64,000 bases of DNA, taken from NCBI RefSeq assembly GCF_000024365.1, contig NC_013235.1:2418001-2482000 (forward strand). Reading direction: 5' to 3'. Under the pieces are notes generated by a model. That model saw only the letters and a program-made list of their open reading frames with translations. It was not told where the DNA came from and made no database searches. Position 1 is the stretch's first letter. Every line of letters starts with the position of its first letter. This document shows, one piece after another, positions 1,829 through 6,661 of the stretch. Source of the stretch: Nakamurella multipartita DSM 44233. Its GTDB lineage: Bacteria > Actinomycetota > Actinomycetes > Mycobacteriales > Nakamurellaceae. The position numbers and the translations under genes are program-made.

Positions 1829-3142
1829 TTAGTGAGCGGCGGCGGCGATGCCCTTGGTGCGAGCGGCCCGCAGCCAGCCGGGGAACTCGTCGAGCAGCCG
1901 GCGATACAGCTCGGCGTCGGTGACCTGATCGATGTCGTCGAGGGCGAAGAAGTCGACGTTGTCGACCTCGCGCCCGTCCATGTCGTCGAGCTTTTCCAGC
2001 AGGCCGTAGTCGTTGGCCCCGATGCCGACGAACTGCCAGAAGATGGGCTTGGCGGACGCCTCGCGGATCACCCGGGTGATCTCCTTGCGCTTGTAGAACC
2101 CGCCATCGGTGAAGAACAGCACCAGCGTGGCCGGGTCGCCGCGCCGGGCGGTGCCGGACAGCTCGGTCAGGATGGGGATCTCGTCGTTGCTGCCGCCCAG
2201 CTTGCGGTAGTTGATCCCGCCGTGGGTGCCGTTCAGGTGCAGGAACTCCTCCGGCCAGGTCTCCAGGTCGGCCACCCGCAGGTCCGGCAGACGCGCGAAA
2301 GTCTTGGCGTACAAGTAGGTTTCCAGGCTGCCGTCGGTGTCGAGCTGGATCGCCACCGGCACCATGCGCTCGACCACGCGGTGGATCAGCCGGGTTCGGA
2401 ACTCCTGGTACATCGAACCGGTCTTGTCGATGACCATGACCACCCGGACCCGTTCGGCGTCGGCCCCCTTGGTCAGCAGGACCCGGTGCACCTCCTTCTT
2501 GCGCAGGTCCAGGGTCTGCCGCTTGACCAGCGACAGCCGCTCCTCGCCCGGCACCGAACGCGGGCCGGCCGGGGTCGGGGTCGGGGTCGGAGCTGGAACT
2601 GCCACCGGGGCCGCCGCCGGCGGGGCCGGGGCGGCGGCCGCGGCCGGCGGTTCCTCGTCCACCTGCACCCCGTGCTCACGCACCAGGGCGGCCAGCCCGG
2701 CGGTCCAGCCGGCCGACACCGAACGCAGCTTCCACTCGCCGGCGCGCCGGTACACCTCGGCCAGCACGGCCGCACGCTCGCTGGTCAGCCCCAGGGCCGG
2801 CACGTCGATCCCGTCCGGCTCGACCCCCACGCCCAGGCCGGCGATGCCGGCCAGTGATCCGGGCTGATCGTCGGCCAGCGCGACCGTGATCGCGATCGTC
2901 TCGATCACCGCAGGCACGGCCGCCAGGTCCAGGGTGAGCCCATCCGGCGCGGTCAGCCGCACGCCGCCCTCTGGTGAGGCCGGCTGGTTGAAGAACACCA
3001 GGTCCTCGTCGGTCCGGACGAGGCGATCGGCGGTGAGCTGGAACGCCATCAGGTCGACGACTCCGGATCGGGCTCCGCGCACGGACAGGGTCAACCGACG
3101 GGCGGACAGTGGCGCGTTCGCGCCTCGACTGAGCTGCGTCAC
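1829..3142 (-). CDS. TerD-domain / von Willebrand A-domain fusion protein
   Basis: 437 aa. The N-terminal ~170 residues are a TerD (tellurium/stress resistance) Ca2+-binding fold: LSRGANAPL start, VDLMAFQL, DEDLVFFNQP, and acidic DDQP/GVEPDGID-type loops. An Ala/Pro linker of about 35 residues follows, then a vWA domain with the MIDAS motif DKTGSM and a later FFTDGGF. The Ter proteins form membrane-linked stress complexes; vWA partners are usually encoded separately (TerY, TerF types). Start chosen at GTG 3142 because VTQLSRGANAPL aligns with the canonical TerD N-terminus; an in-frame TTG at 3181 would add 13 unrelated residues. No other ter genes are next to it. Exact substrate or partner unknown. 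Confidence 0.85.
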   Translation of the reverse strand: MTQLSRGANAPLSARRLTLSVRGARSGVVDLMAFQLTADRLVRTDEDLVFFNQPASPEGGVRLTAPDGLTLDLAAVPAVIETIAITVALADDQPGSLAGIAGLGVGVEPDGIDVPALGLTSERAAVLAEVYRRAGEWKLRSVSAGWTAGLAALVREHGVQVDEEPPAAAAAPAPPAAAPVAVPAPTPTPTPAGPRSVPGEERLSLVKRQTLDLRKKEVHRVLLTKGADAERVRVVMVIDKTGSMYQEFRTRLIHRVVERMVPVAIQLDTDGSLETYLYAKTFARLPDLRVADLETWPEEFLHLNGTHGGINYRKLGGSNDEIPILTELSGTARRGDPATLVLFFTDGGFYKRKEITRVIREASAKPIFWQFVGIGANDYGLLEKLDDMDGREVDNVDFFALDDIDQVTDAELYRRLLDEFPGWLRAARTKGIAAAAH

Positions 3143-3394
3143 CGGCCCAGCGTGACATACGCCCCGGCCGGCCGACGGCAACGTCCGCTACGACCGTTAG
3201 TTTCACAACGCAGACACCCGGGGCCGCGACGAGCAAGCTCAGGACCAGAGCGGTTCGGACGCCCCGATCGCCACAACTGAACAAGAGCCGGTCGACACGC
3301 CGTTCGTCCGGACGACATTGCGAAGAACCCCGGATCCGCACGCCGCGCCCCGGGGTTCTTGCCTGTCCGGGCCCGGACGGCGGGTCGCCCTGGT

Positions 3395-3406
3395 TAGGAT
3401 TCGCCG
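3395..3406 (+). promoter_or_regulatory. Leaderless promoter -10 of the SARP-FHA gene
   Basis: TAGGAT at 3395-3400, then 6 nt, then GTG at 3407. There is no ribosome-binding site, so a leaderless transcript is likely. Confidence 0.55.
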
Positions 3407-4564
3407 GTGACGCCCCCGCACCCCGGCCCGCCCGAGGCCGGTGGCGTGTCCCCGACGCTGGACGTGCGACTGCTCGGACCGCTGGAGCTGCGCCTGGACG
3501 GCCGGCCGATCCCGTTGCCGGGCGGCAAACCCAAGGCCGTGCTGGCCGGGTTGCTGGTCAGCCGCAATCGCGTGGTGCCGGCCGACTCTTTGGCCGACGC
3601 GATCTGGGACGGTGAGGTGCCGGCCAACTTCCTGGCCACCCTGCAGGTCCACGTGTCCGCCCTGCGCCGGGCGCTGCGCCCGGTGTCCGACCCGGGGCTG
3701 CTGACCGTCACCACCCAGTCGCCCGGCTACCGCGTCGTCGTCGACGACGCACTGGTCGACGTCGGCCGGTTCGGCCGGTGGGCGCGGGCCGGCAGCGACC
3801 TGCTGACCGCCCGCCGCTACGCCGAGGCGGCCGACCGGCTACGGGCCGCCCTGGCCGAGTGGTCCGGGTCCGCGCTGGCCGACCTGCAGGGCCTGCGGTT
3901 CGCCGACGACTTCGCCGCCGCCGTGGAGGAGGAGCGGCTGGTCGCGTTGCAGGCCCGGATCGAGGCCGACCTGGCCTGCGGGATGGAGTCGGCGGTGGTC
4001 GGCGAACTGGTCACCCTCACCGGCCAGTACCCGTTGCGCGAGCCGTTCTGGATCCAGCTGATCACTGCCCTGTATCGCTCGGGCCGGCAGGCGGACGCGC
4101 TGGACGCGGCCCGCCGCATCCGGACCCTGCTCGACGACGAACTCGGCATCGATCCCAGCCCGGCGCTGCGGGACCTGGAACGGCAGGTGCTGCGCCAGGA
4201 ACTGGCAGCGCCCGGACCGGCCCCCGTGCCGTCGATGCAGCGCACCGTGGCCGAGACCGCGGTTGTGCTGTCCAAGGCCCGGGTGCGACTGCCGTCCGGG
4301 GAATCGTTGCCGGTGCCCAGCCGGGGTCTGCGCCTGGGCCGGATGGACGACAACGACCTGGTGATCGCCGGGGAGAAGGTCAGTCGCTACCACGCGGTGA
4401 TCGGCGAATCCGCGAACGGCTTCACGGTGACCGACCTGCGCTCCACCAACGGCACCCACGTCAACGACGAGCGGGTGGTGGAGAGCCATCTGCTGCGCGA
4501 CGGGGATCGGATCCGCATCGGCGGCACCGAATTGACCTTCCAGCTCGACGCCGAGCCCGCCTGA
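3407..4564 (+). CDS. SARP-family transcriptional activator with C-terminal FHA domain (EmbR-like)
   Basis: 385 aa, the length of mycobacterial EmbR. Domain order: OmpR-type winged-helix DNA-binding domain (about 15-110), bacterial transcriptional activator domain BTAD (about 115-260; signature ELGIDPSPALRDLE), then an FHA domain (about 300-380) with LGR, VSRYHAVI and RSTNGTHVN, so the phosphothreonine-binding residues R, S, H and N are present. By family it should be switched by a Ser/Thr kinase binding through FHA; no kinase of that class is encoded nearby (the RIO kinase at 7.4 kb is a different type). Starts leaderless at GTG 3407. An 11-bp-spaced direct-repeat array lies immediately downstream, before the secreted-protein gene. 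Confidence 0.9.
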   Translation: MTPPHPGPPEAGGVSPTLDVRLLGPLELRLDGRPIPLPGGKPKAVLAGLLVSRNRVVPADSLADAIWDGEVPANFLATLQVHVSALRRALRPVSDPGLLTVTTQSPGYRVVVDDALVDVGRFGRWARAGSDLLTARRYAEAADRLRAALAEWSGSALADLQGLRFADDFAAAVEEERLVALQARIEADLACGMESAVVGELVTLTGQYPLREPFWIQLITALYRSGRQADALDAARRIRTLLDDELGIDPSPALRDLERQVLRQELAAPGPAPVPSMQRTVAETAVVLSKARVRLPSGESLPVPSRGLRLGRMDDNDLVIAGEKVSRYHAVIGESANGFTVTDLRSTNGTHVNDERVVESHLLRDGDRIRIGGTELTFQLDAEPA

Positions 4565-4571
4565 GCCGGGC

Positions 4572-4610
4572 GGTCAGCCGGCCTTCAGTCGTTCTTCGGT
4601 GAGCCTTCAG
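4572..4610 (+). promoter_or_regulatory. Candidate SARP operator: hexamer direct repeats at 11-bp intervals
   Basis: CTTCAG (4583-4588), CTTCGG (4594-4599) and CTTCAG (4605-4610) are spaced exactly 11 bp. A degenerate fourth copy, GGTCAG (4572-4577), is in phase. SARP/OmpR-type proteins bind tandem half-sites at one helical turn, so this fits a target of the adjacent SARP-FHA regulator. It lies 64 bp upstream of the ATG of the secreted-protein gene. Confidence 0.65.
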
Positions 4611-4673
4611 TGGGGCGGCCGATCCTTTGTTCAGCAGATCGAACAACCAGGATCCCGCCCCCAGGAGGACACC

Positions 4674-5150
4674 ATGGCCACCACCGCCCGCACCTTGATC
4701 CGCCGCCTCGCCGGACTCGTCGTGGCCACCGCCGCGATGTTTCTCGGCTTCGCGATCGTCGGTTCGGTCGGCGCCGCGAACGCCGATACCGTCGCCGGTA
4801 ACACCGTGTTCGGCACCACCGTGGAATGCGGGGGCGACTCGCTGGTGTTCACCAGCACCTCGGACGCCGACTCGGGCAGCTTCGCCAAGATCTGGGTCTG
4901 GGACTCCTACACCGAGCAGTGGGTGACCGACGGCTACTGGGTCGAGGCCGACTACTACGCCTCGTACAACATCTCGGACCTGACGTTCGACCCCGGCTAC
5001 TACATGGTCTACGTGCAGTACGCCCAGTGGAACGGCTACGACTTCGACTTCAGCGGTGAGTACATCGACACCTACGAGCAGTACTACACCTACTCCGACC
5101 ACCAGGCCGAGTCCTTCTGCTACATGGGCAACGACCTGACCGAGTACTGA
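4674..5150 (+). CDS. Small secreted Tyr-rich protein, unknown function
   Basis: 158 aa. Start at ATG 4674 with a strong AGGAGG at 4663-4668. Residues 1-37 form a classical Sec signal peptide (RTLIRRLAG, hydrophobic core, cleavage after AANA, residue 37). The mature ~121 residues are acidic and hold 17 tyrosines plus several Trp, in strand-like alternation (for example DGYWVEADYYASYN, GYYMVYVQYAQW), and only two Cys (52 and 149) that could form a terminal disulfide. It looks like a small beta-sandwich exported domain. No family recognised. It sits directly after the SARP-FHA gene with the phased repeats in between, suggesting it is that regulator's target. Confidence 0.8.
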   Translation: MATTARTLIRRLAGLVVATAAMFLGFAIVGSVGAANADTVAGNTVFGTTVECGGDSLVFTSTSDADSGSFAKIWVWDSYTEQWVTDGYWVEADYYASYNISDLTFDPGYYMVYVQYAQWNGYDFDFSGEYIDTYEQYYTYSDHQAESFCYMGNDLTEY

Positions 5151-5175
5151 TCCGCACCCTTGCCCACCATCGCGG

Positions 5176-5208
5176 CGAGCCCCGGCCGGGACACCCGGCC
5201 GGGGCTCG
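5176..5208. terminator. Hairpin terminator after the secreted-protein gene
   Basis: Perfect 15-bp stem (5176-5190 with 5194-5208, arm CGAGCCCCGGCCGGG) and a 3-nt loop. It lies between convergent genes; there is no T-run. Confidence 0.75.
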
Positions 5209-5251
5209 TCGTCGTCGGTCCCGGCGATCCGGGCTGGACCGACGCGGTGGG

Positions 5252-6661
5252 TCAGCCGGTCGGCCTGGGCAGGGCCAGCAACGCGTTCTCGATCACCTCG
5301 GGCAGCGCCGGGTGGATCCAGTACTGGCCGCGGGCCACGTCGTGCGCCCGCTGTCCGAACGACATCGCTTGCACCAGGGGCTGAATCACCGTCGCGGCCT
5401 CGGGCCCGATGACGTGCGCGCCCAGCAGCAGGCCGGTCCTGGGGTCGGCCAGCACCTTGGCGAATCCGGTGGTGTCCTCCCGGGCCCAGCCGGCGGCGGT
5501 GCCGCCGTAGTCGCGGCGGCCGACGACGTACTCGACGCCCTGCTCCCGGGCCTGCTGCTCGGTCAGGCCGACCGCGGCGATCTGCGGTTCGGTGAAGACG
5601 GCCGCCGGGACGAAGCGGTGGTCGGTGGTGATCCGGTCGTCCGGGTGGTTCAGGTTGTGCCGGACCACCCGGGCCTCGTGGTTGGCCACGTGCTTGAGCG
5701 CGTACGGCGAGCTCAGATCGCCCAACGCGTAGATGCCCGGGACGACCGTCTCCTGGTACTCGTCGACGACCACGCGGCTCTGCTCGTTCACGGTGACGCC
5801 GGTGGCCGGCAGGTTGAGCAGGTCCGAGTTCGGACGGCGGCCGGTCGCCAGCAACAGCACGTCGGCATCAACGGTCGCCTCGCCGTACGGGCCTTCCAGG
5901 AACACCCGGACGCCCTGCCCGTCGAGCGGTTTGATGCCGCAGATCTCGGTGTCCCGGCGCAGGTCGTAGCGGGCCCGGACGTGATCGGTGAACGTGGTTG
6001 CGACGTCCTCGTCGTGGTGACGCAGCAGCCGGGAGCCGCGGACCACCTGGGTCACCCGGGAGCCGAAGGCGTCGAAGACGTGGGCGAACTCGGCGGCGAT
6101 GTAGCCACCGCCGATGATCACGATCCGATCCGGCCGTTGGGCGATGCGCATGATCGTGTCCGAGGTGTGCACCACACCCTCGCCGACGATCTCCTCGTCC
6201 AGCCCGGGGATGTCGGGAATGACCGGGCGGCCGCCGGCGGCCAGCACGAAACGGTCGGCGGTGAGGTCGACCCGGCCGCCCGCGGTCAGGTCCACCGCCA
6301 TGGATTTGACGCCGGTGAACCGGGCGATGCCCGTCAGCATCTCCAGGTTCGGCCACTTGTCGCCCTGCCGGTACTCCAGCCCGTGGGCGGAGATCTCGTC
6401 GGTCCGGCTGAAGATCCGGTCCCGCAGCACCGCCCAGTCGACCGGCGCGACCGTGGCCTTGAGCCCCAGCCGGTCGGCCCGGGTGACCGCGTCGGCCAGG
6501 TCGGCCGGGTAGACGAAGCTCTTGGTCGGGATGCAGCCGGCATTCAGGCAGGTGCCACCGAATGCCCCGGATTCGACCAGGGCCACCCGTTGATCCCGGA
6601 ACTCCCGTCCGAGAATGGTGTTGCCCGAACCAGAACCCACCACCACCAGGTCGAAGTGCAT
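5252..6661 (-). CDS. mtr: Mycothione reductase
   Basis: 469 aa flavoprotein of the pyridine nucleotide-disulfide oxidoreductase class I group. Reduces mycothiol disulfide with NADPH in the cytosol, the actinobacterial counterpart of glutathione reductase. FAD site GSGSGNTILG near the N-terminus, redox-active pair in GGTCLNAGCIPTK (C38 and C43), NADPH site GGGYIAAEF, second FAD motif YALGDL, and the C-terminal catalytic dyad IHPALPE (H450, E455). Identity as mtr rather than lipoamide dehydrogenase rests on the GSGNTI and KHVANHEARVV style and on neighbourhood (Rv2855 in M. tuberculosis lies near proS). Start ATG 6661 is 6 nt after a TAGCCT -10. Confidence 0.93.
   Translation of the reverse strand: MHFDLVVVGSGSGNTILGREFRDQRVALVESGAFGGTCLNAGCIPTKSFVYPADLADAVTRADRLGLKATVAPVDWAVLRDRIFSRTDEISAHGLEYRQGDKWPNLEMLTGIARFTGVKSMAVDLTAGGRVDLTADRFVLAAGGRPVIPDIPGLDEEIVGEGVVHTSDTIMRIAQRPDRIVIIGGGYIAAEFAHVFDAFGSRVTQVVRGSRLLRHHDEDVATTFTDHVRARYDLRRDTEICGIKPLDGQGVRVFLEGPYGEATVDADVLLLATGRRPNSDLLNLPATGVTVNEQSRVVVDEYQETVVPGIYALGDLSSPYALKHVANHEARVVRHNLNHPDDRITTDHRFVPAAVFTEPQIAAVGLTEQQAREQGVEYVVGRRDYGGTAAGWAREDTTGFAKVLADPRTGLLLGAHVIGPEAATVIQPLVQAMSFGQRAHDVARGQYWIHPALPEVIENALLALPRPTG

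Follow-up and report, generated by a model that had tools for sequence, protein, structure and literature searches.

A single locus of Nakamurella multipartita raises the question of whether a short stretch of DNA, located between a regulatory gene and the gene for a small exported protein, serves as an operator, and if so which protein reads it. The stretch carries three phased hexamers within the window, by which we mean the whole 64-kb piece of DNA that was analysed. With moderate confidence, we favor a model where this array is an operator for an activator of the SARP class, and where the adjacent SARP-FHA protein is its most likely reader. We infer binding, activation and phospho-control from features of the sequence.

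The flanking genes

The upstream gene (3407..4564, forward strand) codes for the presumed reader of the array, an EmbR-like protein of 385 amino acids with Trans_reg_C, BTAD and FHA domains. Its DNA-binding domain (PF00486, E 1.3e-8) and BTAD domain (PF03704, E 1.7e-41) both score over the cut-off, which places the protein in the SARP family. Together with a C-terminal FHA domain (PF00498, E 3e-19), these Pfam matches bear out an earlier note on this DNA, which had described the neighboring gene product as a SARP with an FHA domain. The FHA motifs GR, SR.H and NG, which we take to be the residues of the phosphothreonine pocket, align with those of EmbR and are kept in the SARP-FHA protein of a sister species (genome G012), as is characteristic of an EmbR-type FHA domain. 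The best match among PDB sequences is to EmbR itself (2fez, E 1.3e-84, residues 14-382).

The downstream gene (4674..5150, forward strand) is the presumed target, and codes for an exported, Tyr-rich protein of 158 amino acids. Removal of the signal peptide at a guessed cleavage site would leave about 121 residues, including 17 Tyr and 2 Cys. Pfam yields no match to the protein at E<=1, NCBIfam yields nothing above the cut-off, and a profile search of the PDB gave only chance-level matches. Matches were found in two of the 61 genomes searched, its own included, and a single-sequence query of GTDB contigs found no relatives.

Beside the SARP-FHA gene on the reverse strand is a gene for a TerD/vWA protein (1829..3145), which in the sister species is located between the SARP-FHA and exported-protein genes. 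Of 17 genomes, 11 have relatives of the TerD/vWA protein at E<=1e-30, and in nine of these both the SARP-FHA and the exported-protein genes are missing. The names quinone oxidoreductase, mycothione reductase, methionine aminopeptidase and penicillin-binding protein derive from frames read by eye, and gene starts and -10 elements were assigned in the same manner.

The earlier note had also placed a kinase before the regulator in a signaling circuit. Gene linkage lends no support to this step: none of the 16 matches to the Ser/Thr kinase domain PF00069 in the genome falls at the window coordinates, and a kinase motif scan of the 64-kb window found none. The linked kinase gene of an EmbR-type system therefore has no counterpart in the window.

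The hexamer array

The 109-bp intergenic stretch contains the hexamers CTTCAG (4583..4588), CTTCGG (4594..4599) and CTTCAG (4605..4610), all on the forward strand and at a pitch of exactly 11 bp, just as had been noticed before. Direct repeats with a spacing of 11 or 22 bp are characteristic of SARP operators, and the array has this geometry. On the same strand, a predicted -10-like element, GATCCT (xAnnnT, 4621..4626), begins exactly 10 nucleotides (N10) after the third repeat, and a ribosome-binding-site-like AGGAGGA (4663..4669) is located ahead of the ATG at 4674. A degenerate fourth copy had been proposed in phase at 4572..4577 (forward strand), but we find this unsupported. The hexamer there, GGTCAG, matches CTTCAG at 4 of 6 positions, and lies outside a duplicated block that starts at 4580 (see below), and G012 lacks any equivalent 11 bp ahead of its first repeat.

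The presumed leader includes a perfect inverted repeat, TTGTTC-N8-GAACAA (4627-4646), which is found in the duplicate and is absent from G012.

The repeats might be a product of chance without any regulatory function. In the 6.06-Mb genome (6,060,298 bases, one contig), CTTCRG-N5-CTTCRG-N5-CTTCRG is found as an exact trimer at two places, and its reversed control is absent. When the 109-bp stretch was shuffled with dinucleotide content preserved, a comparable generic triplet at pitch 11 appeared in 9 of 20000 shuffles, and in 33 of 20000 when pitches of 10, 11, 21 and 22 were all allowed. Across the 64-kb window, generic pitch-11 triplets occupy 9 positions in 3 places, and shuffled windows give a mean of 1.44 positions with a maximum of 6. 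Such triplets are thus not rare in 64 kb of G+C-rich DNA, which is the argument for chance, and so local statistics alone are insufficient for the array. The case is carried instead by conservation and by the promoter register. The pitch is kept in the sister species, the -10 register recurs at 4 of 5 trimer sites, and related boxes are enriched at SARP loci, all of which make chance a very improbable explanation.

Conservation in a sister species

In G012, the region upstream of the exported-protein gene carries CTTGAG-N5-GTTCAG-N5-CTTCAG, whose three repeats correspond in order to those of the window and have the same 11-bp pitch and the same -10 register. By hand count, the hexamers of the two arrays are identical at 15 of 18 positions and the spacers at 4 of 10. 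When the 180 bp upstream of the G012 gene were shuffled 20000 times with mononucleotide content preserved, no shuffle reached the score of its array. The SARP-FHA proteins of the two species are 60% identical and the exported proteins 45%. Two genes separate the SARP-FHA and exported-protein genes in G012, and the pitch is kept despite this non-adjacency. The two loci have in common the genes for a penicillin-binding protein, a methionine aminopeptidase, SARP-FHA, TerD/vWA, the exported protein and a reductase, where all names other than TerD/vWA and SARP-FHA were read by eye. Loss of phasing in a relative that retains both genes had been proposed as grounds for abandoning the operator model, and the only such relative found, G012, keeps the phasing.

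Among the other 15 genomes of the genus, the exported protein is unmatched (E<=0.001) and no match to SARP-FHA is above 47% identity. A tree of TerD/vWA proteins places the own genome (G000) and G012 as sisters with support of 98/97, and thus the co-occurrence of the SARP-FHA and exported-protein genes represents one event.

A duplicated 573-bp block

The array, promoter and exported-protein gene moved as one 573-bp unit (4580..5152, forward strand), which begins with the array and ends shortly after the stop codon. Its copy is located 1.2 Mb away (G000:C1:3634865-3635437, reverse strand) and has 10 differences. At 98% identity, the copies offer little information on selection. The second exact trimer of the genome belongs to this block. 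The distant copy adjoins a gene that by eye resembles a quinone oxidoreductase, with no SARP gene beside it. Because promoter and gene moved together, the regulated unit could spread without its regulator. Gene order suggests that the window copy is likely the older of the two, since G012 keeps the same neighbors. The duplication has sharp ends, and a target-site duplication was not seen by eye.

Related sites and the -10 register

A search of the own genome for the trimer with two mismatches allowed gave 8 matches, versus 2 for the reversed control. These comprise both exact copies, a further frame that overlaps the window site, one coding match at 3673048, and three intergenic sites, one of which was matched in two frames. 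The coding match was dropped because it lies inside a frame read as aspartyl-tRNA synthetase-like. All three further intergenic sites are in the right orientation. The site at 225094 precedes a membrane-protein-like ORF that is divergent from a short-chain dehydrogenase, and the site at 865244 precedes a PNPOx-like gene. The site at 3573985 has four repeats, is without the -10 register, and is followed by a gene for which the other 16 genomes yield nothing at E<=1e-20. We conclude that the same class of operator is probably present before the distant gene copy and before two or three other genes. The second block copy and these three sites are difficult to reconcile with the single target that the earlier note had envisaged.

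Of the 5 distinct trimer sites, 4 have an xAnnnT element at N10 after the last repeat (GATCCT, GATCGT, TAGGTT and CACACT), and the -10 element had played no part in the trimer search. No such signal was observed at the other 15 of the 16 registers tried. The N10 register has a P value of 7.7e-7, or about 1.2e-5 after correction for 16 registers. If the homologous promoters of the window and G012 are counted once, the signal is present at 3 of 4 sites, for which the corresponding values calculated by hand are about 3e-5 and 5e-4. A fixed distance between the last repeat and the -10 is another characteristic of SARP operators, and it is seen here for a putative -10 assigned from sequence. Across 17 genomes, 31 trimer matches were recorded, 5 of which have the N10 xAnnnT (the four sites and the window's duplicate) and 26 of which do not. 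In the rest of the genus, with G000 and G012 set aside, the trimer gave 21 matches versus 16 for the control, which represents background. A crude coding filter was discarded because long stop-free frames run through several promoter sites too.

The corresponding dimer scan gave 11 matches in the own genome versus 2 for the control, and 65 versus 26 in all 17 genomes, with 54 of the matches outside the own genome. Five own-genome matches (2295644, 4394144, 5136252, 5855173 and 6025197) were viewed by eye and not counted. One of these, 4394144, is located immediately upstream of an ATG, but the hexamer resembling a -10 would run into that start codon. For other genomes, a subset of the dimer matches was viewed. 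Twelve loci were read, two of which (L138 and L144) were kept and ten dropped. Several of the ten overlap coding frames, and at least one (L143, from G004, a genome without SARP-FHA) carries an intergenic dimer between divergent genes.

Which protein might read the array?

To look for the dimer TTCAG-N6-TTCAG followed by the -10 register, we used 60 SARP loci in 14 of the 17 genomes, drawn from about 69 matches to the DNA-binding domain. With at most one mismatch the box is present at four loci and the reversed control at none, and with at most two mismatches the counts are 13 of 60 versus 4. Two of the four loci are those of SARP-FHA in G000 and G012, and the other two encode large SARPs, one in G013 and one near 0.87 Mb in the own genome. 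If the 65 matches in the genus were placed at random, about 0.46 loci would be expected, giving a P value of 0.0013 for four, or 0.012 if the two SARP-FHA loci are counted once (three loci).

All four box-bearing SARPs have a recognition helix of the form VS[AS]LR, versus 1 of 55 others (Fisher 1.1e-5, n=59; locus L172 gave no aligned helix, and the motif was chosen after seeing the data). The lone exception, L218, has a VSALR helix but no such box nearby. Of the 55 other SARPs, 7 have A or S where AfsR has R92 (Fisher 7e-4). In G012, SARP-FHA is the only one of five SARPs examined that has the VS[AS]LR helix. Among 18 SARP loci from other genera, none has the trimer within the DNA examined. 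Their sole full-length SARP-FHA, a 47% relative (L091), has the helix VSNLR and no trimer.

In G013 (L138, G013:C1:1429500-1437500, positions 2436-6098), the large SARP gene is followed by a TTCAG dimer box and then by a small exported-protein gene, with the same anatomy as in the window. The box has C, not T, after the first repeat. A profile comparison of the G013 and window exported proteins aligns only the signal-peptide stretch, and therefore we make no claim that they belong to one family.

OmpR/PhoB-type proteins bind 11-bp direct repeats, and the array could be a genuine activator operator that is read by a different protein, namely an OmpR-family response regulator encoded at about 5.19 Mb (G000:C1). 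TTCAG dimers with the same pitch and register occur in the divergent promoter of this regulator in G000 and in eight other genomes including G012, and in its helix, FISGLRR, the position of AfsR R92 is again occupied by a small residue. However, the two sets of sites differ in sequence. At all 14 sites of the response regulator the first repeat is followed by C or G, whereas T follows the middle repeat in 5 of 5 distinct trimers (8.6e-5). The distinct trimers thus lack the C or G that would mark sites of this regulator. The SARP box of G013 also has C there. The base separates the two classes of site only in part, and cross-reading may occur. In addition, the response regulator gene is unlinked to the exported-protein gene in both G000 and G012. 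On balance, we consider this protein the leading alternative, though an unlikely reader.

The divergent promoter itself (L085, G000:C1:5187000-5193000, positions 2833-2918) has two outward-pointing TTCAG dimers between the OmpR-type two-component system and a gene for a DUF5666 secreted protein. Eight other genomes of the genus carry one or two TTCAG dimers at the equivalent promoter, and the system includes a sensor kinase.

Another SARP of the own genome might also read the array, such as the large SARP near 0.87 Mb, whose gene is located a few kb from a trimer promoter. This protein has a VSSLR helix and a box before the nearby PNPOx-like gene. However, its gene seems to be interrupted by an IS481-type element, and the other four SARPs examined in G012 are without this helix type, yet the array is kept in that species. 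We regard such a reader as quite unlikely. The IS481-type transposase gene (L144, G000:C1:863000-873000, positions 4879-5922) is located in or at the large SARP gene.

The co-occurrence of the box with SARPs and with the VS[AS]LR helix type, including the evidence from G012 and from the interrupted SARP near 0.87 Mb, thus favors SARP-FHA as the reader. Weighing against this model are the trimer site at 3573985 with no -10 register, the C in the G013 box, the box-less L218, the lack of trimers at the SARP loci of other genera, and the intergenic dimer of L143.

A proposed model for regulation by SARP-FHA

If SARP-FHA reads the array, the candidate operator would overlap the -35 region of the exported-protein promoter. 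Two or three activator protomers could sit next to one another along the same face of the helix, with one (C)TTCAG repeat for each. Much like AfsR at afsS, the activator might then recruit RNA polymerase to a poor promoter, in which a -10-like element follows the last repeat at a distance of 10 bp. The FHA domain might tune the activity of SARP-FHA through a phosphothreonine partner. The base-contacting residues T88 and R92 of AfsR align with V81 and A85 of SARP-FHA, and so its reading of bases must differ from that of AfsR. Overall, the 11-bp pitch, the -10-like register, conservation and the correlation with the recognition helix are consistent with the earlier suggestion of a SARP/OmpR-type operator.

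A broader proposal, which we offer tentatively and consider rather doubtful, is that a code exists across the genus wherein SARPs with a small residue in place of AfsR R92 (VS[AS]LR) recognize TTCAG repeats close to the genes that encode them. Such a code would involve two SARP lineages, would place the repeats before an orphan exported protein, would include a candidate trimer operator for an EmbR-type FHA-SARP, and would allow the 573-bp unit to spread without the regulator.

EmbR-type regulators couple Ser/Thr-kinase signaling to transcription. No operator consensus for any regulator of this type was found in the literature searched, a collection that lacks most subscription papers. A conserved and phased candidate operator would make direct tests of recognition and phospho-control simple, and the correlation between helix and box provides a testable rule for predicting SARP targets.

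Comparison with known systems

The -10 element of a promoter conventionally begins at position -12. According to a study of AfsR at afsS in Streptomyces coelicolor (PMC10936776), the binding site consists of 11-bp direct repeats with the -35 element TTCAGC and the poor -10 CACTGT, AfsR contacts T-27 of the downstream repeat, and T88 and R92 contact bases. If the afsS -10 is at -12, it lies 15 nucleotides from the first T of the last repeat, just as in the window (4606 to 4621). The SARP domain of AfsR is also homologous to that of SARP-FHA (E 7.3e-34). In contrast, the afs box has two repeats rather than three, AfsR carries NOD and TPR domains where SARP-FHA has FHA, and T88 and R92 are V and A here.

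EmbR of Mycobacterium tuberculosis consists of an OmpR-type DNA-binding domain, BTAD and FHA, and a published study reports that PknH phosphorylates EmbR in vitro, that PknH acts through the FHA domain, that phosphorylation occurs only under acidic and hypoxic conditions, and that embCAB transcripts are unaffected (PMC9239209). SARP-FHA has the same domain order and near full-length homology. However, pknH is located in the embR operon whereas no kinase gene is present in the window, the EmbR helix is VSNLR, and the targets of EmbR differ from the presumed target here.

PimR of Streptomyces natalensis acts on pimM, its unique target gene, through three direct repeats formed by a heptamer and a 4-nt spacer, as described in PMC5930380. 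This precedent shares with the window a three-repeat SARP operator of 11-nt pitch in the promoter of the target, and differs in its heptamer (CGGCAAG), in an operator that is clear of the -35, and in its SARP-LAL architecture.

The earlier note had known of no described system with the form of a kinase, an FHA-SARP and a single target. EmbR/PknH shares the architecture and PimR combines three repeats with a unique target. Given these precedents, and with no kinase gene in the window, the notion of an undescribed circuit is overstated. Most likely, the arrangement of the array is of a known kind, and what it adds is that an EmbR-type regulator now has a candidate operator that can be tested.
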